Part shown: positions 5,136-38,613 of the stretch, in pieces
How positions within the stretch are numbered: position 1 is the first letter of the stretch
Layout of the letters: every line of letters starts with the position of its first letter
Assembly (NCBI GenBank): GCA_947184155.2
Contig: CAMXCT020000893.1
Location: 62,001 to 126,000, forward strand
Length of the DNA stretch: 64,000 nt
Origin: Cladocopium goreaui
Taxonomy: Eukaryota; Sar; Dinophyceae; Suessiales; Symbiodiniaceae
Direction: 5' to 3'
Notes under the pieces: generated by a model
The model's database searches: none
Seen by the model: the letters and a program-made list of their open reading frames with translations, nothing else
Told to the model about the DNA's origin: nothing
Program-made: the position numbers and the translations under genes

Positions 5136-5914
5136 GGCCGGTCCATGTTTTCCCAGCAAAGTCATCGTCGTCGTGGCCACCTCAGCAATCCGACGGGGGG
5201 AGTGAATCAAATGATCTGACTCGAAACCAGCATGTATAAACATGTCATGAGGGCTGTGTGCTTTGGGGCCCCCCCAACCAAAGTGGTTTGCCATTTCCCT
5301 CCAAAAAGTATAAACGGGCGGACCTGGCAGGCGGCGAACGTTTTTGGGCTGGGACAAGCACAGTATTACAATATGATATAATTAATGGGATGGCCCTTGT
5401 GCTCCTTTCCATGTGCTTTTTAGGTTTAGGGTCCTGACTCCGGACTGTGACTTGAATTGAAACTCTTATCTTAACATTCATACCATGTATTTGTGCCGTG
5501 TATTGCTCAGACAGCTCTGGTTGCAATACAAGAATCAAAGTTAAACATCAAATAACTAAGCTGCTCACAAAGGTGTTGACTCACGCCGATGCACTACGGT
5601 GAGACAGGATGCACTACGGTGAAACTGAATGTCTCAAGCAAAGATGCGTGCATCAACACGTCTCAGACAGTTCTGGTTGACTCATGCTGATGCACTTCAA
5701 TTTCAAATTCAATGCTCAGACAGTTCTGGTTGCAATACAAGAATCAAAGTTAAACATCAAATAACTAAGCTGCTCACAAAGGTGTTGAGTCAGGCAAAGA
5801 ACCGACCTGGCCCCCCGCCAGGGTGGGGGAACCATCCTATCCCTCAAAATATTATAGGAGCAGGCCAGAATTATATACCTATTATCAAAGTCTGAAGCTA
5901 AGGCCTAAGGCTGT
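5136..5914. other. left flank of the TIR element, with an internal ~90-bp direct repeat
   Basis: No convincing gene. A segment beginning CAGTTCTGGTTGCAATACAAG and ending AAGGTGTTGA occurs twice (about 5510-5580 and 5728-5795). The same flank, with indels, precedes copy B at 22591-23384. It ends CCTAAGGCTGT immediately before the TIR. The last bases AGGCTGTT are the proposed target-site duplication of the element. Confidence 0.6.
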
Positions 5915-5915
5915 T

Positions 5916-6175
5916 TATTAAATTTCACGAGTTCCTGGGATTTTGTGATTTTTAGGGAATATTGGATATCAAGGTCAAGATGCAATATTTGGTGCAGTGT
6001 ACGCGCGCAAGGGTGGCACCAAAAAACTTAAGCGTCATGGTTTGCACGGGTTTGCACTGGATCAGGCTTCCATAAATGGAATTGGCCCAATTAATCGTTC
6101 AGAAAAAATGAAACGGTCGGAAACGGTCGGAAACAGTCGGAAACGGTCGGAAACGGTCGGAAACGGTCCCTGAGC
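5916..6175 (+). repeat. left TIR of copy A
   Basis: This matches the reverse complement of 16877-17113 almost base for base, including GATTTTTAGGGAATATTGGA, GTGCAGTGTACGCGCGCAAG and AAAAAATGAAACGGTCGG. The differences I see are single bases (GGTTTGCACGGG against GGTTGCACGGG, GGCCCAATT against GGTCCAATT). The inner end is a run of GGAAACGGTC units, then CCTGAGCATCCGATATTGAT. In copies B and C that last segment has its mirror on the right side, so the full TIR reaches at least 6200. High identity of the two arms implies a recent insertion or homogenisation. Confidence 0.85.
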
Positions 6176-6506
6176 ATCCGATATTGATTACAATCAATAT
6201 TTTTTTTAAAAAAATATCGATATTGATTTTACTAAAAAATCAAAATAAATATCAATATAAAACTAATGCTTTTGAAGCTTCAAAATCAATATAAAAAGTT
6301 GGACCAAATGCCTCTTTCTATTGATATCCACTTTGATTTTTATACTCATTTTCCTCTATTTTTATATTGATTTTGAAGCCTCCAAAACCAATATTTATAT
6401 TGATTTTGTGGTTGGTTTTTGACATGGTTTTGGAGTCTGGGAATGTGTGCGCTCTGCAGTTTTTGGCTTTCAAGTGAAACAGAATTCTTTAAAATATCTT
6501 CACCAA
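6176..6506. other. subterminal AT-rich zone with ATATTGATTTT repeats
   Basis: Between the TIR and the first hairpin the motif ATATTGATTTT or its complement AAAATCAATAT recurs many times, a pattern mirrored inside the right TIR. Repeated subterminal motifs of this kind often serve as transposase binding sites in TIR elements. That role is inference. No coding sequence is seen. The stretch at 6454-6474 resembles the 3' half of the dinoflagellate spliced leader (TTTTGGCTTTCAAG). Confidence 0.5.
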
Positions 6507-6594
6507 TCCTTGCAAAAGGTTAAGGGTCCTTGAGAAAGGACAGCAATCCTTGCAAAAGGAGTCCTTGGAAAAGGACAGCACTCCTTGCAAAAGG
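6507..6594 (+). repeat. GNRA-hairpin cluster in the 5' leader of gene 1
   Basis: Five units follow one another: ATCCTTGCAAAAGG, GTCCTTGAGAAAGGAC, ATCCTTGCAAAAGGAG, GTCCTTGGAAAAGGAC and CTCCTTGCAAAAGGAT. Each folds as a 4-6 bp stem with a GCAA, GAGA or GGAA tetraloop. The last unit abuts the gene 1 start codon at 6595. Confidence 0.85.
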
Positions 6595-7779
6595 ATGGCC
6601 AGGGGTGGGCCCAATCATAAGGCCAAGGTTTACACTGACCCTTCCTTGCTTCTGCAGGTCTTGGGTCAGAAACCAGAGCTGGTGGCAGACCTTGGCCAGT
6701 ATGAAACAGTCAGCAGGGCAGGGGCAGTAGACCCAGCTGGCTTGGTCAAGGTTGCACCCCTTGTGAAAGGGTTGTTGGCTGTTTGCCCCTCAGCCTCTGT
6801 TGCTCCAGGACCTTTGAGGCAGGCTTTGCTGTCCATGCTTACTTCAATGCCAGAAGTTAACAAGACCAAGTGGAATGGCAGTACCTGGAGCAACTTGAAG
6901 CAAGATAGGTTGGCCACAATCTTCTTCCACATCAGAAAGCTTGCAAGGGACCAAGACCAAATGAGGCTGTGTGCCAGCAAGCTGAATGCAAGTTCCTTTC
7001 TGCAGTTGCAGGAGCTGGTAAAGATGGTCAAGCTGCCTGAAGAAGACCATCAGCCCTTGAAAAAGGGTGAAGAAACCCCCTTGCAAAAGGGTGAGTCCTT
7101 GAAAAAGGATGAGGATGCAGTTTCTCTGGACTCATCAGGCATTCCAAAGATGTTTCTGACACCAGAGAAACAAGAAGAGAAGCATCCAAAAGCCAGCTCT
7201 GCTTCCCATGCCAAATCATTTATGATGAGAAGGGAAGGATCCTTGCAAAAGGAAAAAGGAACTCATGCCTTGCAAAAGGCATTGGGGTATGGCAGCAAGC
7301 CTTGCAAAAGGCCTGCATCCCTTGAAACTAAAGTGGAAGGAACCCTTGCAAAAGGGAAAAGCCAACCCCAAGGGGTGACAAAGTCCCTTGGGAAAGGGAA
7401 GAAAGCCCTTGAGAAAGGGAAGAAAGCCCTTGAAAAAGGGAAGAAAACCCTTGAGAAAGGGAAGAAAGCCCTTGAGAAAGGGAAGAAAGCCCTTGAGAAA
7501 GGGAAGAAAACCCTTGAGGAAGGGCACCAAGGGATGAAAGATGGCCCTTGGTATAATGTGAGGAAGACAAATGCAAAAAAAACCCAAAGGACCTACCTCA
7601 CAGGATGCTTGCAAGAAGGACAAGGGACAAGAAGGATTTTGATTGTAGAAGTCCCAGCTACCTGGAGCTCACAGCATGAATATATCTGTGATGAGATCAT
7701 GAAGTCCTTGAAAAAGGACAAGATTGGCAAAGAGGAAGCCTTGCAAATGAGACAGGTGCTGGTGAACAATTTCCCTTGA
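6595..7779 (+). CDS. element gene 1, unrecognised protein with K/G-rich hairpin-encoded repeats
   Basis: This open frame has 394 codons. I chose the ATG at 6595 (MARGGPNHKAKVYTDPSLLL) because the frame has no earlier ATG and a hairpin cluster sits directly upstream. Residues 1-150 are ordinary and helical (for example WSNLKQDRLATIFFHIRKLA). Residues about 150-310 are dominated by LQKGE, LKKG, LAKG and GKKALEKGKKALEK repeats, each made by one hairpin unit. The C-terminal ~70 residues (TRRILIVEVPATWSSQHEYI) look folded again. There are no motifs I recognise. In copy B the gene (24083-25267) is the same length and almost identical. Both being open suggests constraint or recent duplication. Product function is unknown. 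Confidence 0.6.
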   Translation: MARGGPNHKAKVYTDPSLLLQVLGQKPELVADLGQYETVSRAGAVDPAGLVKVAPLVKGLLAVCPSASVAPGPLRQALLSMLTSMPEVNKTKWNGSTWSNLKQDRLATIFFHIRKLARDQDQMRLCASKLNASSFLQLQELVKMVKLPEEDHQPLKKGEETPLQKGESLKKDEDAVSLDSSGIPKMFLTPEKQEEKHPKASSASHAKSFMMRREGSLQKEKGTHALQKALGYGSKPCKRPASLETKVEGTLAKGKSQPQGVTKSLGKGKKALEKGKKALEKGKKTLEKGKKALEKGKKALEKGKKTLEEGHQGMKDGPWYNVRKTNAKKTQRTYLTGCLQEGQGTRRILIVEVPATWSSQHEYICDEIMKSLKKDKIGKEEALQMRQVLVNNFP

Positions 7780-8001
7780 CCCTTGGACCTTTGAGCCCTT
7801 GGGAAAGGGTAAGCATCCACAAAGAACCCTTGCAAAAGGGCTTTATAGCCCTTGTAAAAGGGCAAGCCCTTGCAAAAGGGAATTTTTGAAGAACCCTTGC
7901 CAAAGGGTGTGGAGAAGAAAGCCCTTGCAAAAGGGTGCATGTATATAGAAAGCAGCCCTTGCAAAAGGGTGTGTACAGAATGCAGCCCTTGCAGGTTGTA
8001 T
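7780..8001 (+). repeat. GNRA-hairpin cluster in the 3' region of gene 1
   Basis: After the TGA there are seven close units (GCCCTTGGGAAAGGG, ACCCTTGCAAAAGGG, GCCCTTGTAAAAGGGC, GCCCTTGCAAAAGGG, ACCCTTGCCAAAGGGT and two further GCAA units). They stop abruptly where AT-rich spacer begins. The distribution suggests they are inside the transcript, probably its 3' UTR. Confidence 0.85.
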
Positions 8002-8660
8002 ATAGGCCAGTTTTAGATAAATGAAGAAATTACAAAAAATGTTAAAAATAAGTAAATAGACAAATTTATTAAAACAACTAAAATAAATATAAATATGTTA
8101 TTATTAAACCAACATATGAAAAAACATGAAGTAAACTCATGAGAACTGTTTGAAAATAGTTTTGAAAAACATGCATATTGACATGTGTATGTATATATAT
8201 ATGTATATGTTTCAATATATATATAATGTGTTTGTTTATTTTCACCTCTAACCTTGCACACCTTTATCTACCTATAGCTATCTATCTTGCCACTACTGTC
8301 CTATACTTGCAACCCTTTAATCTTCTAGATCTGGCTTCCAGTTACCTATATAAATGCCCATATGTGCAAACCTAGCACCACCACACTTCCTTATTTTTCT
8401 CACCAATGAGATATACTTCTTTTCTTGTTTTCTCATACCTTCACCCACCTAAAGCAGTTTTCTATCTTTAACCATTAGTTTGCCTTTTCATGTCTACCAT
8501 TCCTTTCCATGCATATTTCCTGTATTTGCATGATATATAGCTTTTTGTTTAAAACATGTTGCTCCATACCATGCATATACATATTTGTTATATGTGTATA
8601 TTTGCACATGTCTTATCTTTTGTTCCTTTCCCACTTCTTCTTTCCTGTGGTGTTTGTCTC
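8002..8660. other. AT-rich spacer without hairpins
   Basis: A low-complexity AT-rich stretch includes TATATATATGTATATG. It has no hairpin units and no convincing frame. It could be an intron or the intergenic/promoter zone between genes 1 and 2. The copy at 25490-26150 is practically identical. Confidence 0.5.
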
Positions 8661-8666
8661 TACCCT

Positions 8667-8704
8667 GCCCCTTGCAAAAGGGTAGCCCTTGCAAAAGGGT
8701 GTTC
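8667..8704 (+). repeat. two GNRA hairpins upstream of gene 2
   Basis: CCCCTTGCAAAAGGGT and GCCCTTGCAAAAGGGT lie side by side about 110 bp before the first gene 2 ATG, after 650 bp with none. This marks a likely transcribed leader. Confidence 0.8.
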
Positions 8705-8813
8705 CTTGTATTTCCTTTTGTGCCATGTTTGTTGTCCATATGTTTTTGTCTCTTTTCCTATGCTATGCTGCAAACAAAACATGTTTAGTTGTTAAAACAA
8801 GCAAACTAAACAC

Positions 8814-9952
8814 ATGAACATGTCCTGCCTGCAGCCATTTTTGGTTCTGAGCCTAGCAGCTATGAGTAGGAAGAAGGGGAAGGAAGATGTGGACATGGAG
8901 GAGGAGGAGGAAGAAGAGGAGGAGTGGGAGGGGGATGAACCTTGGAGAAATTCCAAGGGAAGGAAGACTGGTGGGGGCACCACCTCTTGGGCTAGGCAAG
9001 CCAGAAGAGCTGCCAAGCAAGCCAAGAGGGTGGTGATGTCCACTGGCAAGCCCCTTGAAAAAGGGGAGGAAGCCCTTGCAAAAGGGAAACCCCTTGAGAA
9101 AGGGAACAAGAACAAAGCCCTTGCAAAAGGGACACCCCTTGAGAAAGGGAAAGCCCTTGCAAAAGGGCAAAATGAAGCCAGGTTCCAGGAGCTGAAGGAC
9201 AAGCTGACTAAGAGCCTCAAAAAGGGGAAGCTTGGTCCCAGGCTGGAAACTGGCACACCCCTTGAGAAAGGGACAGGTGCAAGCAGCAGCAATGCTGCAC
9301 CCCTTAAAAAAGGGAAAAAAAAACCTCTTGAAAAGAGGAGGCAACAGCCCTTGAAAAAGGGCAATTCCTTGAAAAAGGAAATGTTGCCAAAAAGGTGGCA
9401 GTTCTGGAGTCAAAGACTGCCACCAACAAGCAGGCAAAATCCCTTGCAAAAGGGAAGGAGACTGCAGCCCTTGAAAAGGGGTCAGAAAAGAAGCAGTCTC
9501 CTGAAGCCCAATCAGAACCTTTGGCTGTGTTGGTTGATTGGCACCATTGCCTGAAAAATGGTCCCCAGGACACTGTGCTGGTCCAGGACCTGCAGAAGCT
9601 CCTTGACAAAGGAGTGGAGGTGCATGTGCTCTCCTTCTGTGGGGCCAAGCAGGTTCCCAAAGTTGAAAAGGAAATCTGGGACAAGCTCCCAGATCTCATT
9701 GACCAACTTCACTGGTGGGGAACCTGCACCAGTCGCACTGGGGTGGGGGGCAAGGCAGAGTATGCCACAGAGTGGGGCTGCCAGGTGGCCTTTGATGATT
9801 CAAAGGACATCTTGCAAGAGCTGGGCTCATGGGGTGTCAAAACCTATGGCATCCAGACACCCAGAGAGAGCCATGCATGGATGCCAGAAAACTCCAGGTT
9901 TGCATCCTTTGCAGATGCAGTGAAGCAGTTCATCAGGGATTACAATCTTTGA
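8814..9952 (+). pseudogene. element gene 2, HAD-like domain protein, frameshifted in copy A
   Basis: The frame opens at 8814 (a second in-frame ATG at 8862 starts MSRKKGKEDVDM) with an acidic Glu run, then hairpin-encoded LEKG/LAKG repeats. By comparison with copy B (26305-27459) one A is missing in the hairpin CCTCTTGAAAAGAGG at about 9322-9336 (B has CTCTTGAAAAAGAG). The frame is lost there and resumes about 60 bp later in another frame through to TGA at 9950-9952. The C-terminal domain is intact: VLVDWHHCL, VHVLSFCG, GGKAEYA and VAFDDSKDILQE match the order of haloacid dehalogenase motifs I-IV. Motif I has DWH in place of DxD, so catalysis is doubtful. A also lacks nine bases (in frame) that B has near 9590. 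Confidence 0.55.
8828..8851 (+). promoter_or_regulatory. possible spliced-leader relic before gene 2
   Basis: CCTGCAGCCATTTTTGGTTC and the following TGAG resemble the conserved core of the dinoflagellate trans-spliced leader (GTAGCCATTTTGGCTCAAG), with one extra T and several mismatches. It sits 10 bp before the ATG at 8862. Relic leaders arise when trans-spliced mRNA is copied back into the genome. The match is imperfect and could be chance. The same sequence is at 26319-26342. Confidence 0.25.
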
Positions 9953-9961
9953 GACTGCTTC

Positions 9962-10440
9962 CAGCCCTTGCAAAAGGGTGCTCTGCAAAACCCTTGAAAA
10001 AGGGTATGGCTCTCACATGGCAACCCTTGAAAAAGGGTAGGTGTCTAGCCCCAATCCTTGCAAAAGGATAACCCTTGAAAAAGGGTAAGTGTCCCCACCC
10101 CCAAGGATAACCCTTGAAAAAGGGTAGGTGACTGGCCCCAATCCTTGCAAAAGGATACCCCTTGAAAAAGGGATGTCCCACCCCAAGCCTTGCAAAAGGA
10201 TACCCCTTGAAAAAGGGACAGTGTCTCACCCCAACCCTTGCAAAAGGATAATCCTTGCAAAAGGATCAAATAAGAGCAACCCTTGCAAAAGGGTCATGTG
10301 GCTCAGGTCTACACACAGCATTTGCAATAACAAATGCATGTATTTACACACACATACATATACAATATAACATTGTGTGTTTCTGTTTGTTGTGTGCTAA
10401 CCTGAGCCATAGCCCAGCCCTTGCAAAAGGGTCACTTGTA
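9962..10440 (+). repeat. GNRA-hairpin cluster in the 3' region of gene 2
   Basis: About 14 units follow the gene 2 stop, with GCAA and GAAA loops alternating: GCCCTTGCAAAAGGGT, ACCCTTGAAAAAGGGT, ATCCTTGCAAAAGGAT, CCCCTTGAAAAAGGG and others. Two more isolated units lie at about 10749 and 10782. Stem ends change together (ACCC with GGGT, ATCC with GGAT). Some pairs are broken in one copy but restored in the other: ACCCTTGCAAAAGGAT near 10237 is ATCCTTGCAAAAGGAT in copy B. Confidence 0.85.
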
Positions 10441-10797
10441 GCTGCAGCCCAACAGTGGTTTGTACAGAAGCTACCAAATGTGTAGCAAGCAGCAAAAAAA
10501 ATGAAATAGATAAATAAAAATAAATCAAAATAACTAAATAATTAATGTATTAAATATAAATACATGCAATTTTACACAACTTGTTTACACAACTTGTTTT
10601 TTTAATTAGAAACCTTTGCCATGGACATATGCCTTGTGAAAACCTGATGTTTTTTGAGTTTTGCATGGACCCTAAAACAACCAAGCAGGGAAACGCAGAT
10701 ACTACTGAAAAAAAAGGCAATGGAATAAAGTCTTTCCCAGAATGTCAACCCCTTGCAAAAGGGGCACCAAATTAAACATTATCCCTTGCAAAAGGGA

Positions 10798-12093
10798 CAC
10801 CACACACATTCAAGATTTAAGGTGTCAAGGTTCATTTTTGTAAACTGAGATGATTTCTCAAATGCTGTTTGGTGTCTGTTTCAGGCTGCAGGCAGATGAT
10901 TATGTTTCTGTTGACTCTGCAGTTTCTTGATCCAAACAAATCCCACAATGATATTTGAAACAGCATAGAAACACAGAGTACTAAACTGTTTCACCCAAAA
11001 TTAAAAGCCAGTGAATTCATACCTGAAAAAACATGAATTAAATTTGATTTATATATATATATAAGGTTAAGATGCAGATGGGAAAATCCTTACTTGCAGA
11101 AATAAGTGTTCAAATTATTTATTTTAAGAGTCAGACACAAATAGTATCTGGAATCTATCTCAAATTATACAATGTATTTTCAAAAAATCCAGTATAGTTT
11201 CAATATAGTCCAATACAGGTTTGACAGTGAAATGTTGCCTTACTGTTTTGTTGTGTACAAAAAAGCATTAAAAACTATTTAACCTATTTGTTTTGGTTTT
11301 GAAAAGCTTTATAAATTAAAAACTATGGTTTTAAAAATGTTAGTGCCAATCCAATCCTATCCAATTCTATCAGTTTATTTGTTTTTTGAACAGGTTCATC
11401 AAAAAAAATCATGGTGTTGAAAAAAAAACTGAACTTTGATGAAATTTGATGAAAACCTGGTTTTCATCAAATTTCATCAAATTTCATCAGATTTCATCAA
11501 AGTTCAGTTTTTTTTAAATTCATTTGAAAAAAATCAACAACCAGTGATTGAAACCAGATTTAGATTTGCAACACCTTGAAAAAGTTGAGATTAATGTAAC
11601 CAATGTTTGTTGAACATTGGTTTTGTTATTGAACTTATATGTGTTGTATGTTTGTTTGGTTAGTAACATCAATTTGTTTTGGTTTGGAAAATATTGAAAA
11701 ACACGTGTTTTGCTTAAATAACAAAAATGTTTTATCTATGTTTGTTTTATATTGTTTTGGTTTGTGTTAATGTATTGCTTTGGTTTGGTTGAAAAATCAT
11801 GGGTTTTCTTCCACCTGCAAAATAATTAAATCATAAATATTCAATATAATTCAATATAATTGCATAAAATTAATAATATACATTTATATAAATAAATATT
11901 ATTTATATATAGTTATTAATGAACATGCTTGTGTATGATATATGCATGGTGTTTTTATTTGTTATGTAGTTTTGACTAGAAAACTATTTATATGCCTTAT
12001 AATATATTATATGTTTGTTTTAAAACACACACATGAACTAAACCCTTCATGCAACTGCAGCCTTTTTAAACTTCAAACACTTTTAGGAAGAAA
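10798..12093. other. AT-rich spacer with a TTTGATGAAA fold-back
   Basis: About 1.3 kb without hairpins or a convincing gene. At about 11429-11508 TTTGATGAAATTTGATGAAA faces its complement TTTTCATCAAATTTCATC, forming a long AT-rich stem. The number of ATTTCATCAA units differs between copies: longer in B (about 28935-29125), shorter in C (about 35726-35795). TATA-rich tracts and CTGCAGCC precede gene 3. TTTTAGGAAG just before its ATG could be a splice acceptor. Confidence 0.55.
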
Positions 12094-13435
12094 ATGCAAA
12101 TTTCCAAGATGGCAAAACCCTTGAAAAAGGGAATTTTGAAAAAACAAGCCCTTGCAAAAGGACAAGCCCTTGCCAAAGGGCAAACCCTTGCCAAAGGGCA
12201 AGCCCTTGCCAAAGGGCAAGCCCTTGGGAAAGGGCAAGCCCTTGGGAAAGGGCAAGCCCTTGCCAAAGGGCAAGCCCTTGGGAAAGGGCAAGCATCTCCC
12301 CAGCAGTGGCAGCAAGTCCTTGAAAAAGGACAAGCCCTTGAAAAAGGGCAAGCTGTGTGCTAAGAACCTCAAGAGACTTGGCAACCTTTCTTTGCAAGAG
12401 AAGGTTACTGCAGTTTGTGAGGAGCACACTGATGAAGAAGATGCTGCCAAGGCCTTGAAAAAGGCCATGACTCCTGCAGAGAATGCAAAGGTCTGGAGCC
12501 AACACCAGACCCACTTGAAGAGAAACCCCTTGGAAAAGGGGGAGCATGATGAGAGAGGCAAGCTGGAGAAGGGGTTTGCAGCTGCCCTTTGGCTCTTGAA
12601 AAAGAGCTCTGCAGGAAGCAGATTTCTCCATGTCAAGGAAGAGGTTGCTGGCAGCACCTCTTGGAACAAAAAGGAGAAATGGAGCAGCAAGAAGGAGATG
12701 TTGAAAATATGGGAAGAAGATGAGTTTGAAGCTCATCTGTCCTCAGGCAGGATCCGCTGGAGAGAGAGTCCCACCACCTGGGGTGTGTGGGAGTACTCAG
12801 ATACCCAAGACCTTGAGAAGAACTTCAAGGTCACTAAGGGTAGAACCACTGCCAGGGGTGTGGAATATGATCCTGCTGAGCAGGAGGAGGAAGCCTTTGA
12901 CAGCCTTTGGCAGGCAGATGGCCACACTGGGGTGCTGGGCCTCTGCCAAGATGGAGCCAAAGGATCCCTTGGAAAAGGGAACACAAGCAAAGGCCTTGGA
13001 AAAGGCCAAGGCCTTGCAAAAGGCAAAGGCCTTGCAAAAGGCCAAGGGGAAAGCCAACAATTGGCCATCAAGGACAAGGAGGTGGAGGATGAGGAGCAGG
13101 ATGAGGAGAAGGATGATGAAGATCCTGCGAAACTCCTCAAGAGAGCCAAAAGAGCCAGGGATGAATGCAGCAAGTGCATCAATGAACTGGAAGAAACCTT
13201 GCAAAAGGCCAAAAGCAGGCTCTCAAAGATGGCCAAAGATGAAATTGAGAAGAAGGTGGAGGCCTTGAAAAAGGTCCAGGACAAGTTGAAAGACTTGCTC
13301 CTGAAGAAGCCAGGTCCACCTACCTTGAAAAAGGCATTGGTGGAATGTGCCAATATGTGCAAGCAAGCCAAGGAGGAGGCCAAGGAGCTGAAGCAGCTTG
13401 CCAACAAGGCAGCCAGCAAAGCTTCTAGCATGTGA
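12094..13435 (+). pseudogene. element gene 3, charged coiled-coil protein, frameshifted near the N-terminus in copy A
   Basis: The ATG at 12094 gives MQISKMAKPLKKGILKK, but one extra base in the A-run near 12138-12144, relative to copy B, puts it into a frame that stops at 12363. The main frame is open from there to TGA 13435 without its own early ATG; the first internal ATG is about 12467. The N-terminus is a run of 18-nt units coding KGKPLP or KGKPLG, one hairpin per unit. The middle (EEDEFEAHLSSGRIRWRESP, TTWGVWEYSDTQDLEKNF) looks folded. A second hairpin cluster codes GLGKGQGLAKGKGLAK. The C-terminal ~120 residues are acidic, then a Lys/Glu/Leu coiled coil (ELEETLQKAKSRLSKMAKDE). Function is unknown. 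The intact version is in copy B (29698-31038). Confidence 0.6.
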
Positions 13436-13436
13436 T

Positions 13437-13668
13437 CCTTGCAAAAGGATAACCCTTGCAAAAGGGATGCTGGCTTGCACAGCCCTTGCAAAAGGGTTAG
13501 TGGCACAGGCACTCCCTTTGACCCTTGCAAAAGGGTAACCCCTTGCCAAATGCTTCCTGGCCCTTGCAAAAGGGCAGCCCCAACCCTTGCAAAAGGGCAG
13601 CCCCAACACTTGCAAAAGGGTGCCAGCCCTTGCAAAAGGGTCATGCAAGCCCCTTGCAAAAGGGTAGT
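13437..13668 (+). repeat. GNRA-hairpin cluster after gene 3
   Basis: Nine units follow the stop codon, all with GCAA loops: ATCCTTGCAAAAGGAT, ACCCTTGCAAAAGGG, GCCCTTGCAAAAGGGT, CCCCTTGCAAAAGGGT and others. One related sequence, CCCCTTGCCAAATGC, has lost its right arm. In copy B one GCAGCCCCAACCCTTGCAAA segment is missing, so unit number changes by tandem loss. Confidence 0.85.
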
Positions 13669-13876
13669 TTTTTTAAATCCAATTTTGGTAGATAGAAGCT
13701 AGGAGAACTTCTTCACATGCCTAGAAAAAAGTTTGCTGGCTGCAGCTTGGGGAGATGGTGAAGGGAAATGCATGCATGGAAAGGCATGTATAGGTTGAGG
13801 TGACATGCATGCCTCTGCAGCTGTTTTGCTTCAAAACTGTAGGTTTAGTTTAGTAGGTAGTAGAGTAGGAGATTAA
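13669..13876. other. spacer between hairpin clusters of genes 3 and 4
   Basis: About 200 bp without hairpins. It contains GCATGCATGGAAAGGCATG and CTGCAGCTGTTTTGC and no frame of note. It is conserved in all three copies (31250-31457, 37957-38163). Confidence 0.4.
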
Positions 13877-14316
13877 GCCCTTGCAAAAGGGTAAGTTCCA
13901 ACCCTTGCAAAAGGGAAGCAAAGCCTTGCAAAAGGCAAAAAGGCACACCTTTGCAAAAAGGTATAGCAAGCCTTGCAAAAGGCAAAGCCTTGCAAAAGGC
14001 AAACCTTTGGAAAAAGGTAGAGGAAAGCCTTGCAAAAGGCAAACCCTTGCCAAGGACACCCTTGCAAAAGGGTCAGCCTCTCACCCCTTGCAAAAGGAAA
14101 CCCTTGCAAAAGGGTTGCTGGCTTGCACAGCCCTTGCAAAAGGGACACCCTTGCAAAAGGGCAGGTCTTACCAAAAGCAGCCTGGCTAGAGCCCTTGCAA
14201 AAGGACAATCCTTGAGAAAGGGCTGCTTCCACACCCCTTGCAAAAGGGTTGCAGGGAGAGACCTTGCAAAAGGTCCAGCCAAGTGCTCTTCTGCCTGAGC
14301 CTTTGTGAAAAGGCAC
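13877..14316 (+). repeat. dense GNRA-hairpin cluster in the leader of gene 4
   Basis: About 22 units in 430 bp, ending 10 bp before the gene 4 ATG. Stem variety is greatest here: GCCTTGCAAAAGGC, ACCTTTGCAAAAAGGT, ACCTTTGGAAAAAGGT, ACCCTTGCAAAAGGGT, GACCTTGCAAAAGGTC and GCCTTTGTGAAAAGGC. In each the outer bases change in pairs and keep the stem, while the loop remains GCAA, GGAA or GTGA. Confidence 0.88.
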
Positions 14317-14326
14317 TTCCTCAGCC

Positions 14327-16132
14327 ATGAAAAATGCAAAGAGGCTGAGAGGGTGGAAGAAGGATATGGATCTGGGTGCAGACACAGAAGGAGAAACCCC
14401 ATCCACAAGTTCTGCACCCAGCAACTTGGCTACAAAGCTATTGTCCCTTTGGGCACATGGCAAGCTCTCTGCAGTGGAAGTGCAAAAGCTCTCCAACCTG
14501 GCCACACTTGATGGTTGCAGCCATCCTGAAGTTGCAACTCTTGGAGCAGCTGGGAATTTTGGAGAGCAGCCAGGAAATTGCCACAGGGCCTTGGTAAGGT
14601 CCTTCTGCAACCAGCTGTCAGTGCCTGAGCCTGGCTTGGTCACATGCAAATGCTTTGACCCCAAGACCAGCAAAATCATTGATGAGGATGTTGCGATTTT
14701 CTACCCACACCTCATGTTCAGTGCATTGGCTGAGAGTTACCCAGAAGTTTTTCAAAGCTTTTCAAGCTTCATGAGCTGCCTGAATTTTGGGAACAAACCT
14801 TGGCAAGGGATGATGACAGGCTGGTTAACCATCCAGCAACCCTTGAAAAAGGGTGGGAGCAAGTCACCATCCCTCTGTTCACACATGGTGATGGAGTGGA
14901 ATATGAATCCAGGGACAGCTTGATGGTTTGGAGCTTTGGACCACTCCTCTCCCAAGAACAATCCCTGGACAGCCACTTGCTCATGGCAGCTTGGCCCAAG
15001 AGTTGCACTTGCAAAGACACATGGCCACAGCTCTGGAAAGAATTGGCTTGGTCCTTCAAAGCCCTTGCAAAAGGACAGCACCCAACTCATGATGCAGATG
15101 GCAACCCCTTGAAAAAGGGGAGCCCTTTCTGGGCAAAGAAAGGCAAGCCACTGGCATCAGGCCTTAAGGCCATTGTGTGGTGCATTGAAGGAGACCATGA
15201 ATTCTTCAGCAACAGCTTGGGCCTTCCCCATTGGAGGAATGCATCCCCATGCTGGAATTGCGATTGCCCTCAAGCTGCTGGAGAGAAGCCATACAACAAG
15301 CTCCATCCATGGGATCAGTTCACAGAGGTGGATCACTCTTGGGCCCAGGCCTTTCCTAGCAGTGAACACCCCTTGCTAACTGAGGTCCCTGGCAACAGTA
15401 GCAGGCTTGTGAGAGGAGATGCCCTGCATATCCTGTTCACAAAAGGTTTGTATGGGCACCTCCTTGGATCCATCCTGCATTATTTGTGCTGGTATGATGA
15501 AGGTGCACACCAGGCAAAAAGAGGTCCAAGCAGTGTACACCGACAAAGAAGTGACACGCAGGCTCACCAATTTGGTGCTAAGCATGTTCACTGATCCAAA
15601 GAAGCCTTGGGCAAACTGGGCCAACCTGAGCTGTAAAGGTGGTGAAGGCAAGCACCTGGCTCCATGCCTGCTGGAAGTCTTGAAAAACATCTTGGATTTC
15701 AGCAAGCCAGAGCACAGCCACATGCTCAAGTGCTTAGAGCATGTATGCCAGGTGGTGGCAATCTGGGACTCTGCAGGAACATTTCTCACAAAAGCAGAGT
15801 TCAAGAAGTCTTGGCAATTGGCACAAGATGCCATGAAAGAATACCAGTGGCTGAATGCATGGTCGGAAGATTGTGGAAGGAGTTCCTTCCACATAGTCAT
15901 CAAGCACCATACATTTCTACATCTTGCAAAAGATGCCTGGTATTTAAATCCCAGAGTCTTCTGGTGCTTCAAGGCAGAAGACTATGTGGGTCACATAAGT
16001 ACTGTGACCCACAGTGTGTCCATGGGTGTGAAAGCAACCAAGATCAGCCAAAAACTGGCCATCAAGTACAGAATTTTATTACATCTTCTGTACACAAGGC
16101 CAGGGTTTCATCTGCAAACCGAGGTTGAATAG
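14327..16132 (+). pseudogene. element gene 4, candidate DDE-type transposase, two frameshifts in copy A
   Basis: ATG 14327 (MKNAKRLRGWKKDMDL) opens a gene of about 601 codons. It contains LWAHGKLSAVEVQKLSNLAT, then IPLFTHGDGVEYESRDSLMV, IEGDHEFFSNSLGLPHW, and CWNC-D-C (15250-15267, a CxxC likely to bind zinc), then HILFTKGLYGHLLGSILHYL. The paired Asp motifs (HGD, EGD) with a CxxC insertion resemble RNase-H-fold transposases, and I recall the same motif order in repetitive dinoflagellate proteins. No third catalytic acid is assigned. Copy A has lost one base at about 14752 (TTTCAAAGC against TTTCAAATGC in C), and like all copies has an extra A in the run at 15517-15521 that shifts the last ~200 codons. 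Few hairpins fall inside this gene (about 14838, 15061, 15105), unlike genes 1-3. Confidence 0.5.
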
Positions 16133-16144
16133 CTTGGCTCTGCT

Positions 16145-16565
16145 ATCCCTTGAGAAAGGGACACCCTGGCAAAAGGATTGCCCTTGCAAAAGGGCAATTG
16201 CCAAGACTAGCCCTTGAGAAAGGGTGCCCCTTGAAAAAGGGAGTTTGCCACAAGCAATCCTTGAGAAAGGATGTCCCTTGCAAAAGGGAAATTGCCAAAA
16301 TCAATCCTTGAGAAAGGATGCTCCTTAATGCAAAAGGAAACCCCTTGCAAAAGGGCACTGCCACCTTAGCCCTGGAGCTCTTTGGACATCCCTTGGGAAA
16401 GGGAAAGATACCAGCACTGATCCTTGCAAAAGGATAAAACCCTTGCAAAAGGGTAAGTTGCCAGAGGCCCTTGAGAAAGGGCATCCCTTGAGAAAGGACA
16501 TCCCTTGAAAAAGGGAGTGATGGAGCTAATCCTTGAGAAAGGGTCCTGATCCTTGGCAAAGGATA
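16145..16565 (+). repeat. GNRA-hairpin cluster after gene 4
   Basis: About 18-20 units follow the stop at 16132, here mainly with GAGA loops (TCCCTTGAGAAAGGGA, ATCCTTGAGAAAGGAT, GCCCTTGAGAAAGGGC) mixed with GCAA, GAAA and GGGA. The last is ATCCTTGGCAAAGGAT, about 550 bp inside the right end of the element. Beyond it I see no more units up to copy B. Confidence 0.85.
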
Positions 16566-16876
16566 ACACTTTGCCTTGAAATTTGTACATACAACCCTCC
16601 AAAAGAGGGGGCTGGTGCTGCAATGTCTGGGGTCCAAAAGGGAAAGGGGAGACAAGTGGAAACATTGGAAAATATTGATTTTTAAATGGATTTTTATATT
16701 GATTTTGATATTGATTTTTATATGGATTTTTATATGGATTTTTAGAGCGAAGGTGCCATCTCCGACTGTTTCCAACCGTTTCCCCTTGGACACCTTTGGA
16801 CCTTCAAAAAAAACGGCGTTGCGCGGAAATGCGTATTAAAAAAAATGCGGGTTGGGCAAGTTTTGGCCTGATCATG
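16566..16876. other. right subterminal zone of copy A, with internal deletion
   Basis: ATATTGATTTTTA-type repeats (16668-16742) run directly into GAGCGAAGGTGCCATCTCCG. In copies B and C these are separated by about 370-400 bp holding the inner TIR and one arm of a nested fold-back. Copy A therefore has a deletion with its junction at about 16743-16746, leaving only the right arm of the fold-back (16746-16880). Confidence 0.7.
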
Positions 16877-17113
16877 TTTCCGACCGTTTCCGACTGTTTC
16901 CGACCGTTTCCGACCGTTTCATTTTTTCTGAACGATTAATTGGACCAATTCCATTTATGGAAGCCTGATCCAGTGCAAACCCGTGCAACCATGACGCTTA
17001 AGTTTTTTGGTGCCACCCTTGCGCGCGTACACTGCACCAAATATTGCATCTTGACCTTGATATCCAATATTCCCTAAAAATCACAAAATCCCAGGAACTC
17101 GTGAAATTTAATA
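16877..17113 (-). repeat. right TIR of copy A
   Basis: Reverse complement of 5916-6160 with only a few single-base differences. It begins with GGAAACGGTC units read in reverse (CCGACCGTTTCCGACTG) and ends CTCGTGAAATTTAATA. It is followed by AGGCTGTT, the proposed target-site duplication. Confidence 0.85.
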
Positions 17114-17114
17114 A

Positions 17115-17325
17115 GGCTGTTAATCTAAATATTGCAAAGATCTAAGATGACGACTTGACAATGTGCACCTCATCACAATACGTGACCAAGTGTGTAATGT
17201 CATGGCGAGCCTAACTAAAACTTGTGTCCGTCCCGATATTGTCCTGCAAAACCTTGAAGCGATCACTGCCCGCAGACTATCGCAGCTGTTGCATGCCATT
17301 CAGCATGGTCGGGTCCACTGGCCAT
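17115..17325. other. right flank of the insertion with a short open frame
   Basis: Sequence present three times (17115, 35065, 41775). A plus-strand frame at about 17163-17330 reads ASLTKTCVRPDIVLQNLEAI and is moderately protein-like, but it runs straight into the CATTTCGTGCGAA tandem repeat. It could be an exon relic. I would not call it a gene. Confidence 0.3.
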
Positions 17326-23384: not shown

Positions 23385-24082
23385 TTATTAAATTTCACGA
23401 GTTCCTGGGATTTTGTGATTTTTAGGGAATATTGGATATCAAGGTCAAGATGCAATATTTGGTGCAGTGTACGCGCGCAAGGGTGGCACAAAAACATTAA
23501 GCGTCTGGTTTGCACGGGTTTGAACGGATCAGGCTTCCTCTTTTCCCATAAAATGGAATGGTCAATTAACGTTCAGAAAAAATTTGAACGGTCGGAAACA
23601 GTCGACAACGGTCGGAAAAGGTCCTGAGCATCCGATATTGATTACAATCAATATTTTTTCAAAAAAATATCGATATTGATTTTACTAAAAAATCAAAATA
23701 AATATCAATATAAAACTAATGCTTTTGAAGCTTCAAAATCAATATAAAAAGTTGGACCAAATGCCTCTTTCTATTGATATTCACTTTGATTTTTATACTC
23801 ATTTTCCTCTATTTTTATATTGATTTTGAAGCCTCCAAAACCAATATTTTATATTGATTTTGAAGCCTCCAAAATCAATATTTTATATTGATTTTGTGGT
23901 TGGTTTTTGACATGGTTTTGGAGTCTGGGAATGTGTGCACTCTGCAGTTTTTGGCTTTCAAGTGAAACAGAATTCTTTAAAATATCTTCACCAATCCTTG
24001 CAAAAGGATAAGGGTCCTTGAGAAAGGACAGCAATCCTTGCAAAAGGAGTCCTTGGAAAAGGATAGCAATCCTTGCAAAAGG

Positions 24083-25267
24083 ATGGCCAGGGGTGGGCCC
24101 AATCATAAGGCCAAGGTTTACACTGACCCTTCCTTGCTTCTGCAGGTCTTGGGTCAGAAACCAGAGCTGGTGGCAGACCTTGGCCAGTATGAAACAGTCA
24201 GCAGGGCAGGGGCAGTAGACCCAGCTGGCTTGGTCAAGGTTGCACCCCTTGTGAAAGGGTTGTTGGCTGTTTGCCCCTCAGCCTCTGTTGCTCCAGGACC
24301 TTTGAGGCAGGCTTTGCTGTCCATGCTTACTTCAATGCCAGAAGTTAACAAGACCAAATGGAATGGCAGTACCTGGAGCAACTTGAAGCAAGATAGGTTG
24401 GCCACAATCTTCTTCCACATCAGAAAGCTTGCAAGGGACCAAGACCAAATGAGGCTGTGTGCCAGCAAGCTGAATGCAAGTTCCTTTCTGCAGTTGCAGG
24501 AGCTGGTAAAGATGGTCAAGCTGCCTGAAGAAGACCATCAGCCCTTGAAAAAGGGTGAAGAAACCCCCTTGCAAAAGGGTGAGTCCTTGAAAAAGGATGA
24601 GGATGCAGTTTCTCTGGACTCATCAGGCATTCCAAAGATGTTTCTGACACCAGAGAAACAAGAAGAGAAGCATCCAAAAGCCAGCTCTGCTTCCCATGCC
24701 AAATCATTTATGATGAGAAGGGAAGGATCCTTGCAAAAGGAAAAAGGAACTCATGCCTTGCAAAAGGCATTGGGGTATGGCAGCAAGCCTTGCAAAAGGC
24801 CTGCATCCCTTGAAACTAAAGTGGAAGGAACCCTTGCAAAAGGGAAAAGCCAACCCCAAGGGGTGACAAAGTCCCTTGGGAAAGGGAAGAAAGCCCTTGA
24901 AAAAGGGAAGAAAGCCCTTGAGAAAGGGAAGAAAGCCCTTGAGAAAGGGAAGAAAGCCCTTGAGAAAGGGAAGAAAGCCCTTGAGAAAGGGAAGAAAACC
25001 CTTGAGGAAGGGCACCAAGGGATGAAAGATGGCCCTTGGTATAATGTGAGGAAGACAAATGCAAAAAAAAACAAAAGGACCTACCTCACAGGATGCTTGC
25101 AAGAAGGACAAGGGACAAGAAGGATTTTGATTGTAGAAGCCCCAGCTACCTGGAGCTCACAGCATGAATATATCTGTGATGAGATCATGAAGTCCTTGCA
25201 AAAGGACAAGATTGGCAAAGAGGAAGCCTTGCAAATGAGACAGGTGCTGGTGAACAATTTCCCTTGA
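24083..25267 (+). CDS. element gene 1, copy B
   Basis: This frame of 394 codons starts at the ATG just after the leader hairpins and is nearly identical to copy A. Differences are one hairpin loop (GAAA/GAGA exchanges in the GKKALEK run), NKRTYL in place of TQRTYL, and LQKDK in place of LKKDK. Lys/Gly repeats occupy about residues 150-310, between an N-terminal helical domain and a C-terminal ~70-residue domain. No family is recognised. It is followed by a hairpin-rich 3' region (25280-25457) and then AT-rich spacer. Confidence 0.65.
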   Translation: MARGGPNHKAKVYTDPSLLLQVLGQKPELVADLGQYETVSRAGAVDPAGLVKVAPLVKGLLAVCPSASVAPGPLRQALLSMLTSMPEVNKTKWNGSTWSNLKQDRLATIFFHIRKLARDQDQMRLCASKLNASSFLQLQELVKMVKLPEEDHQPLKKGEETPLQKGESLKKDEDAVSLDSSGIPKMFLTPEKQEEKHPKASSASHAKSFMMRREGSLQKEKGTHALQKALGYGSKPCKRPASLETKVEGTLAKGKSQPQGVTKSLGKGKKALEKGKKALEKGKKALEKGKKALEKGKKALEKGKKTLEEGHQGMKDGPWYNVRKTNAKKNKRTYLTGCLQEGQGTRRILIVEAPATWSSQHEYICDEIMKSLQKDKIGKEEALQMRQVLVNNFP

Positions 25268-25279
25268 CCCTTGGACCTT

Positions 25280-25457
25280 TGAGCCCTTGGGAAAGGGTAA
25301 GCATCCACAAAGAACCCTTGCAAAAGGGCTTTATAGCCCTTGTAAAAGGGCAAGCCCTTGCAAAAGGGAATTTTTGAAGAACCCTTGCCAAAGGGTGTGG
25401 AGAAGAAAGCCCTTGCAAAAGGGTGCATGTATATAGAAAGCAGCCCTTGCAAAAGGG
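25280..25457 (+). repeat. GNRA-hairpin cluster after gene 1, copy B
   Basis: Same seven units as 7794-7968, including the GTAA and GCCA loop variants. The pattern of unit order and spacing is preserved. Confidence 0.85.
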
Positions 25458-26304
25458 TGTGTACAGAATGCAGCCCTTGCAGGTTGTATATAGGCCAGTT
25501 TTAGATAAATGAAGAAATTACAAAAAATGTTAAAAATAAGTAAATAGACAAATTTATTAAAACAACTAAAATAAATATAAATATGTTATTATTAAACCAA
25601 CATATGAAAAAACATGAAGTAAACTCATGAGAACTGTTTGAAAATAGTTTTGAAAAACATGCATATTGACATGTGTATGTATATATATATGTATATGTTT
25701 CAATATATATATAATGTGTTTGTTTATTTTCACCTCTAACCTTGCACACCTTTATCTACCTATAGCTATCTATCTTGCCACTACTGTCCTATACTTGCAA
25801 CCCTTTAATCTTCTAGATCTGGCTTCCAGTTACCTATATAAATGCCCATATGTGCAAACCTAGCACCACCACACTTCCTTATTTTTCTCACCAATGAGAT
25901 ATACTTCTTTTCTTGTTTTCTCATACCTTCACCCACCTAAAGCAGTTTTCTATCTTTAACCATTAGTTTGCCTTTTCATGTCTACCATTCCTTTCCATGC
26001 ATATTTCCTGTATTTGCATGATATATAGCTTTTTGTTTAAAACATGTTGCTCCATACCATGCATATACATATTTGTTATATGTGTATATTTGCACATGTC
26101 TTATCTTTTGTTCCTTTCCCACTTCTTCTTTCCTGTGGTGTTTGTCTCTACCCTGCCCCTTGCAAAAGGGTAGCCCTTGCAAAAGGGTGTTCCTTGTATT
26201 TCCTTTTGTGCCATGTTTGTTGTCCATATGTTTTTGTCTCTTTTCCTATGCTATGCTAAAGCAAACAAAACATGTTTAGTTGTTAAAACAAGCAAACTAA
26301 ACAC

Positions 26305-27459
26305 ATGAACATGTCCTGCCTGCAGCCATTTTTGGTTCTGAGCCTAGCAGCTATGAGTAGGAAGAAGGAGAAGGAAGATGTGGACATGGAGGAGGAGGAG
26401 GAGGAGGAAGAAGAGGAGGAGTGGGAGGAGGATGAACCTTGGAGAAATTCCAAGGGAAGGAAGACTGGTGGGGGCACCACCTCTTGGGCTAGGCAAGCCA
26501 GAAGAGCTGCCAAGCAAGCCAAGAGGGTGGTGATGTCCACTGGCAAGCCCCTTGAAAAAGGGGAGGAAGCCCTTGCAAAAGGGAAACCCCTTGAGAAAGG
26601 GAACAAGAACAAAGCCCTTGCAAAAGGGACACCCCTTGAGAAAGGGAAAGCCCTTGCAAAAGGGCAAAATGAAGCCAGGTTCCAGGAGCTGAAGGACAAG
26701 CTGACTAAGAGCCTCAAAAAGGGGAAGCTTGGTCCCAGGCTGGAAACTGGCACACCCCTTGAGAAAGGGACAGGTGCAAGCAGCAGCAATGCTGCACCCC
26801 TTGAAAAAGGGGAAAAAAAACCTCTTGAAAAAGAGGAGGCAACAGCCCTTGAAAAAGGGCAATTCCTTGAAAAAGGAAATGTTGCCAAAAAGGTGGCAGT
26901 TCTGGAGTCAAAGACTGCCACCAACAAGCAGGCAAAATCCCTTGCAAAAGGGAAGGAGACTGCAGCCCTTGAAAAAGGGTCAGAAAAGAAGCAGTCTCCT
27001 GAAGCCCAATCAGAACCTTTGGCTGTGTTGGTTGATTGGCACCATTGCCTGAAAAATGGTCCCCAGGACACTGTGCTGGTCCAGGACCTCATGGCCCTGC
27101 AGAAGCTCCTTGACAAAGGAGTGGAGGTGCATGTGCTCTCCTTCTGTGGGGCCAAGCAGGCCCCCAAAGTTGAAAAGGAAATCTGGGACAAGCTCCCAGA
27201 TCTCATTGACCAACTTCACTGGTGGGGAACCTGCACCAGTCGCACTGGGGTGGGGGGCAAGGCAGAGTATGCCACAGAGTGGGGCTGCCAGGTGGCCTTT
27301 GATGATTCAAAGGACATCTTGCAAGAGCTGGGCTCATGGGGTGTCAAAACCTATGGCATCCAGACACCCAGAGAGAGCCATGCATGGATGCCAGAAAACT
27401 CCAGGTTTGCATCCTTTGCAGATGCAGTGAAGCAGCTCATCAGGGATTACAATCTTTGA
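26305..27459 (+). CDS. element gene 2, HAD-like domain protein (intact copy)
   Basis: The frame has 384 codons from ATG 26305, or 368 from the in-frame ATG 26353 (MSRKKEKEDVDMEEEE), which follows a spliced-leader-like stretch. Domains in order: an acidic Glu run; a basic stretch (RQARRAAKQAKRVV); about 15 hairpin-encoded LEKG/LAKG units; then a folded domain of about 150 residues. That domain has VLVDWHHCL, VEVHVLSFCG, GVGGKAEYA and VAFDDSKDILQE followed by GVKTYGIQTP. This order and spacing fit a HAD-superfamily Rossmann domain (nucleophile strand, Ser, Lys, paired Asp). The usual DxD of motif I is DWH, so it may be a non-catalytic or divergent member. Hairpin insertions stop exactly at the domain border. 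Confidence 0.65.
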   Translation: MNMSCLQPFLVLSLAAMSRKKEKEDVDMEEEEEEEEEEEWEEDEPWRNSKGRKTGGGTTSWARQARRAAKQAKRVVMSTGKPLEKGEEALAKGKPLEKGNKNKALAKGTPLEKGKALAKGQNEARFQELKDKLTKSLKKGKLGPRLETGTPLEKGTGASSSNAAPLEKGEKKPLEKEEATALEKGQFLEKGNVAKKVAVLESKTATNKQAKSLAKGKETAALEKGSEKKQSPEAQSEPLAVLVDWHHCLKNGPQDTVLVQDLMALQKLLDKGVEVHVLSFCGAKQAPKVEKEIWDKLPDLIDQLHWWGTCTSRTGVGGKAEYATEWGCQVAFDDSKDILQELGSWGVKTYGIQTPRESHAWMPENSRFASFADAVKQLIRDYNL

Positions 27460-27470
27460 GACTGCTTCCA

Positions 27471-27945
27471 GCCCTTGCAAAAGGGTGCTCTGCAAAACCC
27501 TTGAAAAAGGGTATGGCTCTCACATGGCAACCCTTGAAAAAGGGTAGGTGTCTAGCCCCAATCCTTGCAAAAGGATAACCCTTGAAAAAGGGTAAAGTGT
27601 CCCCACCCCCAAGGATAACCCTTGAAAAAGGGTAGGTGACTGGCCCCAATCCTTGCAAAAGGATACCCCTTGAAAAAGGGATGTCTCACCCCAAGCCTTG
27701 CAAAAGGATACCCCTTGAAAAAGGGACAGTGTCTCACCCCAATCCTTGCAAAAGGATAGTCCTTGCAAAAGGATCAAATAAGAGCAACCCTTGCAAAAGG
27801 GTCATGTGGCCCAGGTCTACACACAGCATTTGCAATAGCAAATGCATGTATTTACACACACATACATATACAATATAGCATTGTGTGTTTCTGTTTGTTG
27901 TGTGCTAACCTGAGCCATAGCCCAGCCCTTGCAAAAGGGTCACTT
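27471..27945 (+). repeat. GNRA-hairpin cluster after gene 2, copy B
   Basis: About 13 units matching 9962-10440. Several bases differ from copy A. One change restores pairing (ATCCTTGCAAAAGGAT where A has ACCCTTGCAAAAGGAT). Two more units lie at about 28254 and 28287. Confidence 0.85.
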
Positions 27946-28311
27946 GTAGCTGCAGCCCAACAGTGGTTTGTACAGAAGCTACCAAATGTGTAGCAAGCAG
28001 CAAAAAAATGAAATAAATAAAAATAAATCAAAATAACTAAATAATTAATGTATTAAATATAAATACATGCAACTTTACACAACTTGTTTACACAACTTGT
28101 TTTTTAAATTAGAAACCTTTGCCATGGACATATGCCTTGTGAAAACCTGATGTTTTTTTGAGTTTTGCATGGACCCTAAAACAACCAAGCAGGGAAACAC
28201 AGATACTACTGAAAAAAACGGCAATGGAATAAAGTCTTTCCCAGAATGTCAACCCCTTGCAAAAGGGGCACCAAATTAAACATTATCCCTTGCAAAAGGG
28301 ACACCACACAC

Positions 28312-31038: not shown

Positions 31039-31248
31039 TCCTTGCAAAAGGATAACCCTTGCAAAAGGGATGCTGGCTTGCACAGCCCTTGCAAAAGGGT
31101 TAGTGGCACAGGCATTCCCTTTGACCCTTGCAAAAGGGTAACCCCTTGCCAAATGCTTCCTGGCCCTTGCAAAAGGGTAGTCCCAACACTTGCAAAAGGG
31201 TGCCAGCCCTTGCAAAAGGGTCATGCAAGCCCCTTGCAAAAGGGTAGT
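31039..31248 (+). repeat. GNRA-hairpin cluster after gene 3, copy B
   Basis: Eight GCAA units following the stop; one fewer than in copies A and C because of a short tandem loss. One unit (ACACTTGCAAAAGGGT) carries a stem mismatch. Confidence 0.85.
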
Positions 31249-31896: not shown

Positions 31897-31906
31897 TTCC
31901 TCAGCC

Positions 31907-33713: not shown

Positions 33714-33724
33714 CTTGGCTCTGC

Positions 33725-37722: not shown

Positions 37723-37723
37723 T

Positions 37724-38603: not shown

Positions 38604-38613
38604 TTCCTCAGCC

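Follow-up and report, generated by a model that had tools for sequence, protein, structure and literature searches.

A GNRA Hairpin Repeated More Than One Hundred-Fold in a Dinoflagellate DNA Transposon: A Possible Recognition Signal in the Messages of the Element

Introduction

The boxB sites of phage lambda, with a short CCCT/AGGG stem and a GNRA-like loop read by the basic N peptide, resemble the hairpins described here, but they are few per phage transcript, have a pentaloop and serve bacterial antitermination. The REP/RAYT and IS200/IS605 systems also have repeated hairpins, which are linked to a transposase, but these systems are bacterial, transpose through single-stranded DNA and have no terminal inverted repeats (TIRs). 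The present work concerns a 16-nt hairpin unit that is repeated throughout a TIR transposon of the dinoflagellate Cladocopium goreaui (assembly GCA_947184155.2). The window, i.e., the whole stretch of DNA that was analysed, covers 64,000 nucleotides of contig CAMXCT020000893.1 (positions 62,001 to 126,000, forward strand) and contains three copies of the element, which are denoted A, B and C.

The palindromes in the organelle DNA of Volvox carteri are likewise short hairpins at high density that have their loop in common, and they are regarded as selfish (PMC2670323). They occupy intergenic and intron DNA outside the intron open reading frames (ORFs), one rRNA module excepted, occur in both orientations on a strand and are 14–79 nt long in the plastid (PMC2670323). 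By contrast, the 16-nt units of the TIR transposon have one orientation, with no GNRA loop on the minus strand, and they also occur in protein-coding DNA, where 55 of the 119 units of copy B lie in ORFs. The packaging signals of single-stranded RNA viruses are reported to be multiple, degenerate and dispersed RNA signals that promote binding by one protein (PMC6281560). A shared loop motif, an outer stem kept in structure only and many sites are found here as well, but the viral signals belong to RNA genomes packaged in a capsid, whereas the element is DNA, and no capsid or binding protein was recognised among its gene products. The introner elements of the parasitic dinoflagellate Amoebophrya carry hairpin-forming inverted repeats inside genes; they are introns with terminal inverted repeats of 8–20 nt (PMC7789003), whereas the hairpins here have 16 nt and lie in or near open ORFs. 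No such element was recognised among the top matches in the open full-text literature, a body that leaves most subscription journals outside its coverage. To our knowledge, no mobile element of this kind has been described.

Results and Discussion

Occurrence of the Hairpin Unit

The motif CCTT-NNNN-AAGG was found at 301 sites in the window, and all 301 lay within the three copies of one 11.2-kb element. Copy A contained 120 sites (111 with GNRA loops and 118 with loops of the wider GNNA class), copy B 119 (110 and 117) and the partial copy C 62 (57 and 62). The GNRA loops were read on the plus strand, which is the gene-sense strand, at 278 of the 301 sites and on the minus strand at none. The original prediction had claimed about 130 units in copy A, loops restricted in class and always in gene sense, a list of stem variants and a GCCA exception mostly in gene 3. 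The strict count of 120 increased to 125 in copy A with the looser core CTT-NNNN-AAG, which occurred 321 times in the window and four times outside the copies. The stem variants were present, four of the five GCCA loops of copy A were within gene 3, and the strand and loop counts above showed neither equal orientations nor loops drawn from all classes. The coordinates given for the element (6507..16565) corresponded to the hairpin-bearing interior of copy A, and the whole element extends over 5915–17114. The copies and the hairpin arrays of copy A, the latter delimited by site count and covariance model, are as follows:

5915..17114, plus strand: element copy A, whole, TIR to TIR (TIRs and target duplication)
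23385..35064, plus strand: element copy B, whole, with genes 1–3 open (copy alignment, TIRs)
35303..41774, plus strand: element copy C, right-hand part, 99.6% identical to 11006–16743 of copy A (right end read)
6505..7971, plus strand: hairpin array 1, gene 1 with its upstream and downstream parts
8667..10798, plus strand: hairpin array 2, gene 2 with its upstream and downstream parts
12116..13666, plus strand: hairpin array 3, gene 3 with its downstream part
13876..16565, plus strand: hairpin array 4, gene 4 with its upstream and downstream parts, sparse within the gene

The interior of copy A (6500–16570; 120 sites, 111 GNRA) was resampled 200 times under each Markov model. The Markov-1 model gave a mean of 0.6 sites and 0.05 GNRA loops, and the Markov-3 model gave 3.6 sites (maximum 9) and 0.9 GNRA loops (maximum 4), which ruled out composition-driven chance as the origin of the sites. 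Matches to a covariance model of the unit at an expect value (E) below 0.1 occurred only on the plus strand, within 6505–16565, 23993–34146 and 36403–40853; among the best 300 of the 325 matches up to E = 1, the first on the minus strand had an E of 0.12. Moreover, a search of copy B by shape only (23996–34150; 4-nt loop, stem of at least 5 bp) found 106 GNRA hairpins on the plus strand and none on the minus strand. Seven of the 106 had 6-bp stems without the terminal CCTT (CCTCTT, GCTCTT, ACCTTT twice, GCCTTT, CATCTT and GCAGCA); six of these differed at pairs 3, 4 or 5, and GCAGCA was unlike the rest. The Rfam scan of the window yielded no match above the gathering score, and hence no known Rfam family for the hairpin.

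Covariation and Folding of the Stem

The unit can be defined more sharply than before as an unpaired A, a 6-bp stem (NNCCTT/AAGGNN), a GNRA loop and a second unpaired A. The Watson–Crick stem was 4, 5, 6 and at least 7 bp long in 10, 53, 52 and 4 of the 119 units of copy B, respectively, and an A immediately preceded the stem in 96 of them and followed it in 74 (background 0.32). Covariation was evaluated for the CTTG-type units of copy B (n = 124, 117 distinct) with shuffled partners as the control. Pair 5 was formed in 106 of the 117 distinct units versus 56.5 after shuffling, and pair 6 in 65 versus 31.4, with all four Watson–Crick types occurring at both positions; pair 7 was at the chance level (14 versus 15.0). 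Pairs 1–4 provide no test in the core-found set, because the units were picked by their CCTT/AAGG core. The 119 units collapsed by their flanks to 53 families, the largest having 38 and 16 members, and after this collapse pair 5 was formed in 48 of 53 (27.2 shuffled), pair 6 in 28 (14.5) and pair 7 in 9 (9.3). Two-sided changes were counted in 59 rows, of which 52 were distinct, comprising the 53 representatives and six non-CCTT stems that had been chosen for their pairing (GCAGCA was dropped); 41 cells had such changes versus 8.4 after shuffling, and slid structures reached at most 13. The compensating stem pairs of the original prediction thus exceeded chance in the collapsed families as well, and also at a synonymous position in ORFs.

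Paired arms may also originate from mutation. A short palindrome that duplicates selfishly, its symmetry maintained by template switching, would have no function for the element; quasi-palindrome correction is a known mutation process, and the derivation of the 119 units from 53 families, with 38 and 16 units in the largest two, is in keeping with it. This explanation is possible but rather doubtful. Arm copying should leave a tail beyond the sixth pair, whereas the stem ends at 6 bp with pair 7 at the chance level, and the conserved flanking A, the constant GNRA loop and the single orientation also speak against it. A stem that stops cleanly at six pairs, next to a conserved A and with a loop of steady class, is better explained by recognition than by copying of the arms.

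Folding of the 16-mers as RNA was better for the plus strand than for the minus strand in 114 of the 119 units (mean −6.9 versus −5.4 kcal/mol). The folding energy of whole arrays, calculated for five stretches against 60 Markov shuffles, had z values of −1.4 to −2.9 on the plus strand and −0.2 to −2.75 on the minus strand, which is not decisive.

Position of the Units Relative to Genes and Reading Frames

All four genes of the element are on the plus strand. Their positions in copy B are as follows:

24038..25267, plus strand: gene 1, with KALEKG repeats; ORF from TTG, first ATG at 24083
26353..27459, plus strand: gene 2, with a C-terminal alpha/beta domain; the listed ORF begins at 26305, and the ATG of MSRKKEK was adopted as the start
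29698..31038, plus strand: gene 3, Lys-rich protein
31907..33713, plus strand: gene 4, as two overlapping ORFs (31907–33175 and 33000–33713)

The 55 units in the ORFs of copy B were distributed over three frames (28, 24 and 3), and 64 units were outside ORFs; the limit of the gene 1 ORF was taken from the TTG, and two of the gene 1 units precede the first ATG. The tandem 18- and 21-base repeats of genes 1 and 3 encode peptides of the KALEKG or PLQKG type, and selection on such a repeated peptide could mimic palindromes. The distribution of the units makes this highly improbable. In 27 of the 28 units in the frame NNC CTT GNR AAA GGN, the wobble base of the Gly codon was paired with its partner in the stem, whereas the Gly codons used elsewhere than in units predict 6.3; no probability is attached to this comparison because the 28 include tandem relatives. 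This pairing, the several frames and the non-ORF units contradict peptide coding as the cause.

Of the spacings of up to 60 bases between successive units, 33 of the 37 inside ORFs and 15 of the 55 outside were multiples of 3. Hence, the ORFs look real, and the units appear to have multiplied under reading-frame constraint. The distance from the stop codon to the first hairpin was 16, 12, 0 and 14 nt for genes 1–4, that is, within 0–16 nt for all four genes, and gene 4 had just four units inside. Stretches judged to be AT-rich after masking of the units made up 33% of copy B and 31% of copy A and contained 19 of the 119 and 19 of the 120 units, respectively. These stretches are likely the least constrained DNA, and their few units in copy B disfavour palindromes that spread by mutation. 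In the interior of copy B, units were absent from the leftmost 610 bases (TIR included) and from the rightmost 550 bases.

A Possible Role of the Hairpin in RNA

The constant loop type and strand, together with the matched changes in the outer stem, suggest that the hairpin is recognised by some factor in the messages of the element. The explanation that we favour, tentatively and with a likelihood somewhat short of even, is an RNA hairpin on the mRNAs of the element that is read by a putative protein. The sense orientation, the crowding in ORFs and right after stop codons, and the better folding of the plus strand are the observations in favour of RNA. Transcripts of the TIR transposon would bear dense arrays of one protein-recognition hairpin acting in the sense RNA, and the putative reader would be a protein encoded by the element or a recruited host factor. 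The sequence that this reader contacts may comprise the fixed inner stem with its GNRA loop and the flanking A; of the outer two pairs, it may sense only the shape. With many sites per mRNA, it could coat, protect, export or translate the mRNAs of the element over others. The units would have multiplied by tandem duplication, which preserved the frame within ORFs, and would have been retained as hairpins. The original prediction had proposed selection on RNA structure; the fixed loop class, the single orientation and the compensating pairs beyond chance support it in part, and RNA as the selected molecule is a candidate.

Several points weigh against a role in RNA or are neutral to it. Gene sense and DNA strand are confounded because all four genes are on one strand. 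The same hairpin could form in a DNA strand, and the loops also fit the wider GNNA class. The mean pairing probability of the core stem, obtained by local folding of four stretches assumed to be mRNAs, was merely 0.47–0.68 on the plus strand (0.29–0.41 on the minus strand). At pair 5 of 112 distinct units, G-U occurred 3 times versus 13.9 expected and A-C 6 times versus 16.4; at pair 6, the values were 16 versus 17.9 and 11 versus 14.9, respectively. The two mismatches were thus depleted about equally, although selection on RNA should tolerate G-U. The shared flanks of copies A, B and C mean that they are duplicates of one insertion and not independent. The outer pairs had no fewer changes between copies A and B (13/477) than other mRNA-like parts, a clean two-sided swap of one pair was present in no unit, and purifying selection on the stems is not demonstrated by this divergence. 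Among the 53 representatives, G-U was ahead of A-C at pair 6 (12 versus 4) and not at pair 5 (2 versus 3). The mismatch counts do not discriminate between RNA and DNA; their similar depletion is in line with palindromes maintained by mutation as well.

The hairpin could also fold in a single DNA strand as the element replicates or transposes, and a protein of the element could bind it, as in the REP/RAYT and IS200/IS605 systems. The symmetric G-U and A-C pattern fits this reading, as do the restriction to one strand across 10 kb and the GNNA sequence of 117 of the 119 loops. GNNA is a class of stable DNA loops. However, a DNA role leaves the crowding in ORFs and after stop codons unexplained, and units are missing from the outer 610 and 550 bases of the interior of copy B. 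The three internal unit-free spacers are weak evidence against such a role, since they were delimited by that very absence. On balance, single-stranded DNA is a distinctly unlikely site of action.

CpG positions, and columns no more than 3 away from a gap, were excluded before the divergence between copies A and B was counted. The changed positions were 3/961 in core stems, 13/477 in outer pairs, 7/482 in loops (6/241 at loop positions 2 and 3), 26/4509 in the rest of the ORFs, 14/1371 in the rest of the non-ORF mRNA-like parts and 116/2866 in spacers. The core stems differed from the spacers with p = 1e-11, from the UTR-like (untranslated-region-like) rest with p = 0.05 and from all mRNA-like rest with p = 0.27. 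The divergence was a mosaic along the element, with spacer bins at 8000–8749 showing 0%, and therefore no selection is claimed from this comparison. The values for core, outer pairs and loop positions 2 and 3 are those that unit-to-unit conversion would give, in agreement with the mutational origin of the palindromes. Among the 26 listed unit differences, one was the absence from copy B of an entire unit, at a tandem step of roughly 23 bases, which is again consistent with that origin; none of the listed differences was the exact gain or loss of a single isolated unit, which speaks against it. The unit at 9303 in copy A and 26800 in copy B differed in the loop and an outer base, such that the pair is formed in one copy alone. 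Some of the unit changes may have resulted from conversion among tandem units.

If the hairpins act in RNA, selection on structure would have acted more than a hundred times along a DNA transposon, in coding as well as non-coding sequence, and this would point to a means by which an element discriminates its own mRNAs from those of the host. If they do not, they are natural palindromes that mutation makes and keeps symmetric, and they caution against taking covariation as proof of RNA function.

Ends, Copies and Gene Products of the Element

The element is a transposon with TIRs and a 6-bp target duplication, as given by the following features of copy A:

5915..6154, plus strand: left TIR (alignment with the reverse complement of 16876–17114)
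16876..17114, minus strand: right TIR (local alignment)
5909..5914, no strand: left target site duplication GGCTGT (read in sequence)
17115..17120, no strand: right target site duplication GGCTGT (read in sequence)

The alignment of the two TIRs of copy A, 240 columns long, contained a single gap and a single mismatch; the TIRs of copy B were diverged further. GGCTGT flanks both A and B, equivalent to one insertion event. The sequence flanking B and the right end of C was the same as that of A, and A and B were 97% identical over 9.7 kb of alignment, flanking tandem arrays included.

In gene 4 (14327–16132 in A, 31907–33713 in B), an apparent frame change occurs at one common place in all three copies, and copy A has extra frame breaks in genes 2 and 4 relative to B. 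None of the products of genes 1–4 matched Pfam at its cut-off (best E for a gene product, 0.063); both gene 4 ORFs gave no Pfam family at E up to 10 and no NCBIfam family at E up to 1, and the NCBIfam matches of genes 1, 2 and 4 were noise at most. Among PDB sequences, gene 2 and the first gene 4 ORF gave only noise, the latter having no match at E up to 1. The structure model of the first gene 4 ORF had a mean predicted local distance difference test (pLDDT) score of 36 and was useless. Gene 4 is a transposase candidate by its position only. The C-terminal domain of gene 2 was modelled as alpha/beta (pLDDT 62), with a best Foldseek E of 0.017 and no match at or below 0.001; a weak resemblance to HAD-type phosphatases among the matches is too weak for a name. 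DWH, VLSF and FDDSKD, seen by eye in gene 2, are candidate HAD-like motifs. Viral contigs contained no relative of the first gene 4 ORF, the C-terminal part of gene 2, gene 1 or the copia-like ORF described below; phages contained none of 12100–16100 searched as DNA, and plasmids contained none of the first gene 4 ORF.

A Possible Second Hairpin Family in the Neighbouring Copia-Like Element

An apparent sense-strand hairpin family with a CTCAA loop and a C-G closing pair is present at 57299–60250; its stems include CACC/GGTG, CATC/GATG, CAAC/GTTG and GACC/GGTC. CTCAA occurred 38 times in 56701–64000, 14 of them with stems of at least 4 bp, and CCTCAAG occurred 23 times on the sense strand and not once on the other strand in 57001–64000. 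At the 19 distinct sites, pair 2, beside the closing pair, included all four Watson–Crick types and was formed in 15 versus 6.5 after shuffling, and pair 4 was formed in 16 versus 11.6; pairs 3, 5 and 6 at these sites had no clear excess over the shuffles. The loop had been picked after a scan of several loop lengths, and many of the sites are tandem relatives. The element had zf-CCHC and rve Pfam matches, both below the cut-off, and its copia label depends on these together with what we take to be Ty1/copia-like polyprotein features.

Two unrelated elements with two private loops would make an element-specific reader likelier than a genome-wide process, although there are just two cases. A broader proposal is that the transposable elements of this genome label their mRNAs, each with a high-copy hairpin code private to it (GNRA in the TIR transposon and CTCAA in the copia-like element), and that each code would be read by a putative RNA-binding protein of the same element. 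Such codes would provide self-recognition at the RNA level that works inside coding sequence. This generalisation is unlikely.

Similar Units Elsewhere

Two nearby GCAA units were found at no place in viral contigs. Two GNRA units within 30 nt were found in 6 stretches of viral contigs and 96 of prokaryote genomes; 72 of these 102 loci carry two units, and the maximum is nine. Four prokaryote loci (L085, L094, L037 and L055) each have 7–9 GNRA units with this core, all on a single strand, and in L085 three of the four matches lie 196 bases from one another.

CpG Content and Other Repeats in the Window

The interior of copy B had 17 CpG in 10.1 kb, with an observed/expected (o/e) ratio of 0.03 (TpG 1.49, CpA 1.26), whereas the o/e ratio was 0.92 and 0.98 in the outer parts of B and about 0.5 in the copia-like element. 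Per kilobase, the CpG o/e ratio was 0.00–0.15 in 7000–16000, 24000–34150 and 36000–40900, and 0.4–1.2 in the kilobases bearing the ends. The GCGA loop was absent among the units, which goes with the nearly CpG-free interior. In the published methylomes of Symbiodinium, most methylation is at CG, at about 70%, and is even over genes and transposons (PMC5890265). CG methylation could have driven the CpG loss, but it leaves the contrast within the element unexplained.

Tandem arrays with a 483-bp unit lie beside the copies and beyond (1907–4211, 18322–21664, 42901–46602 and 49121–51579) and have no Rfam match. Just beyond the element, 17340–17816 and 41985–42391 contain repeats of about 70–83 bp with CCCTCATTTCGTGCGAAAGGG, a possible hairpin. 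A degenerate ATCTA array occupies 46870–48155 and is followed at 48339–49081 by an array based on CGAAACC.

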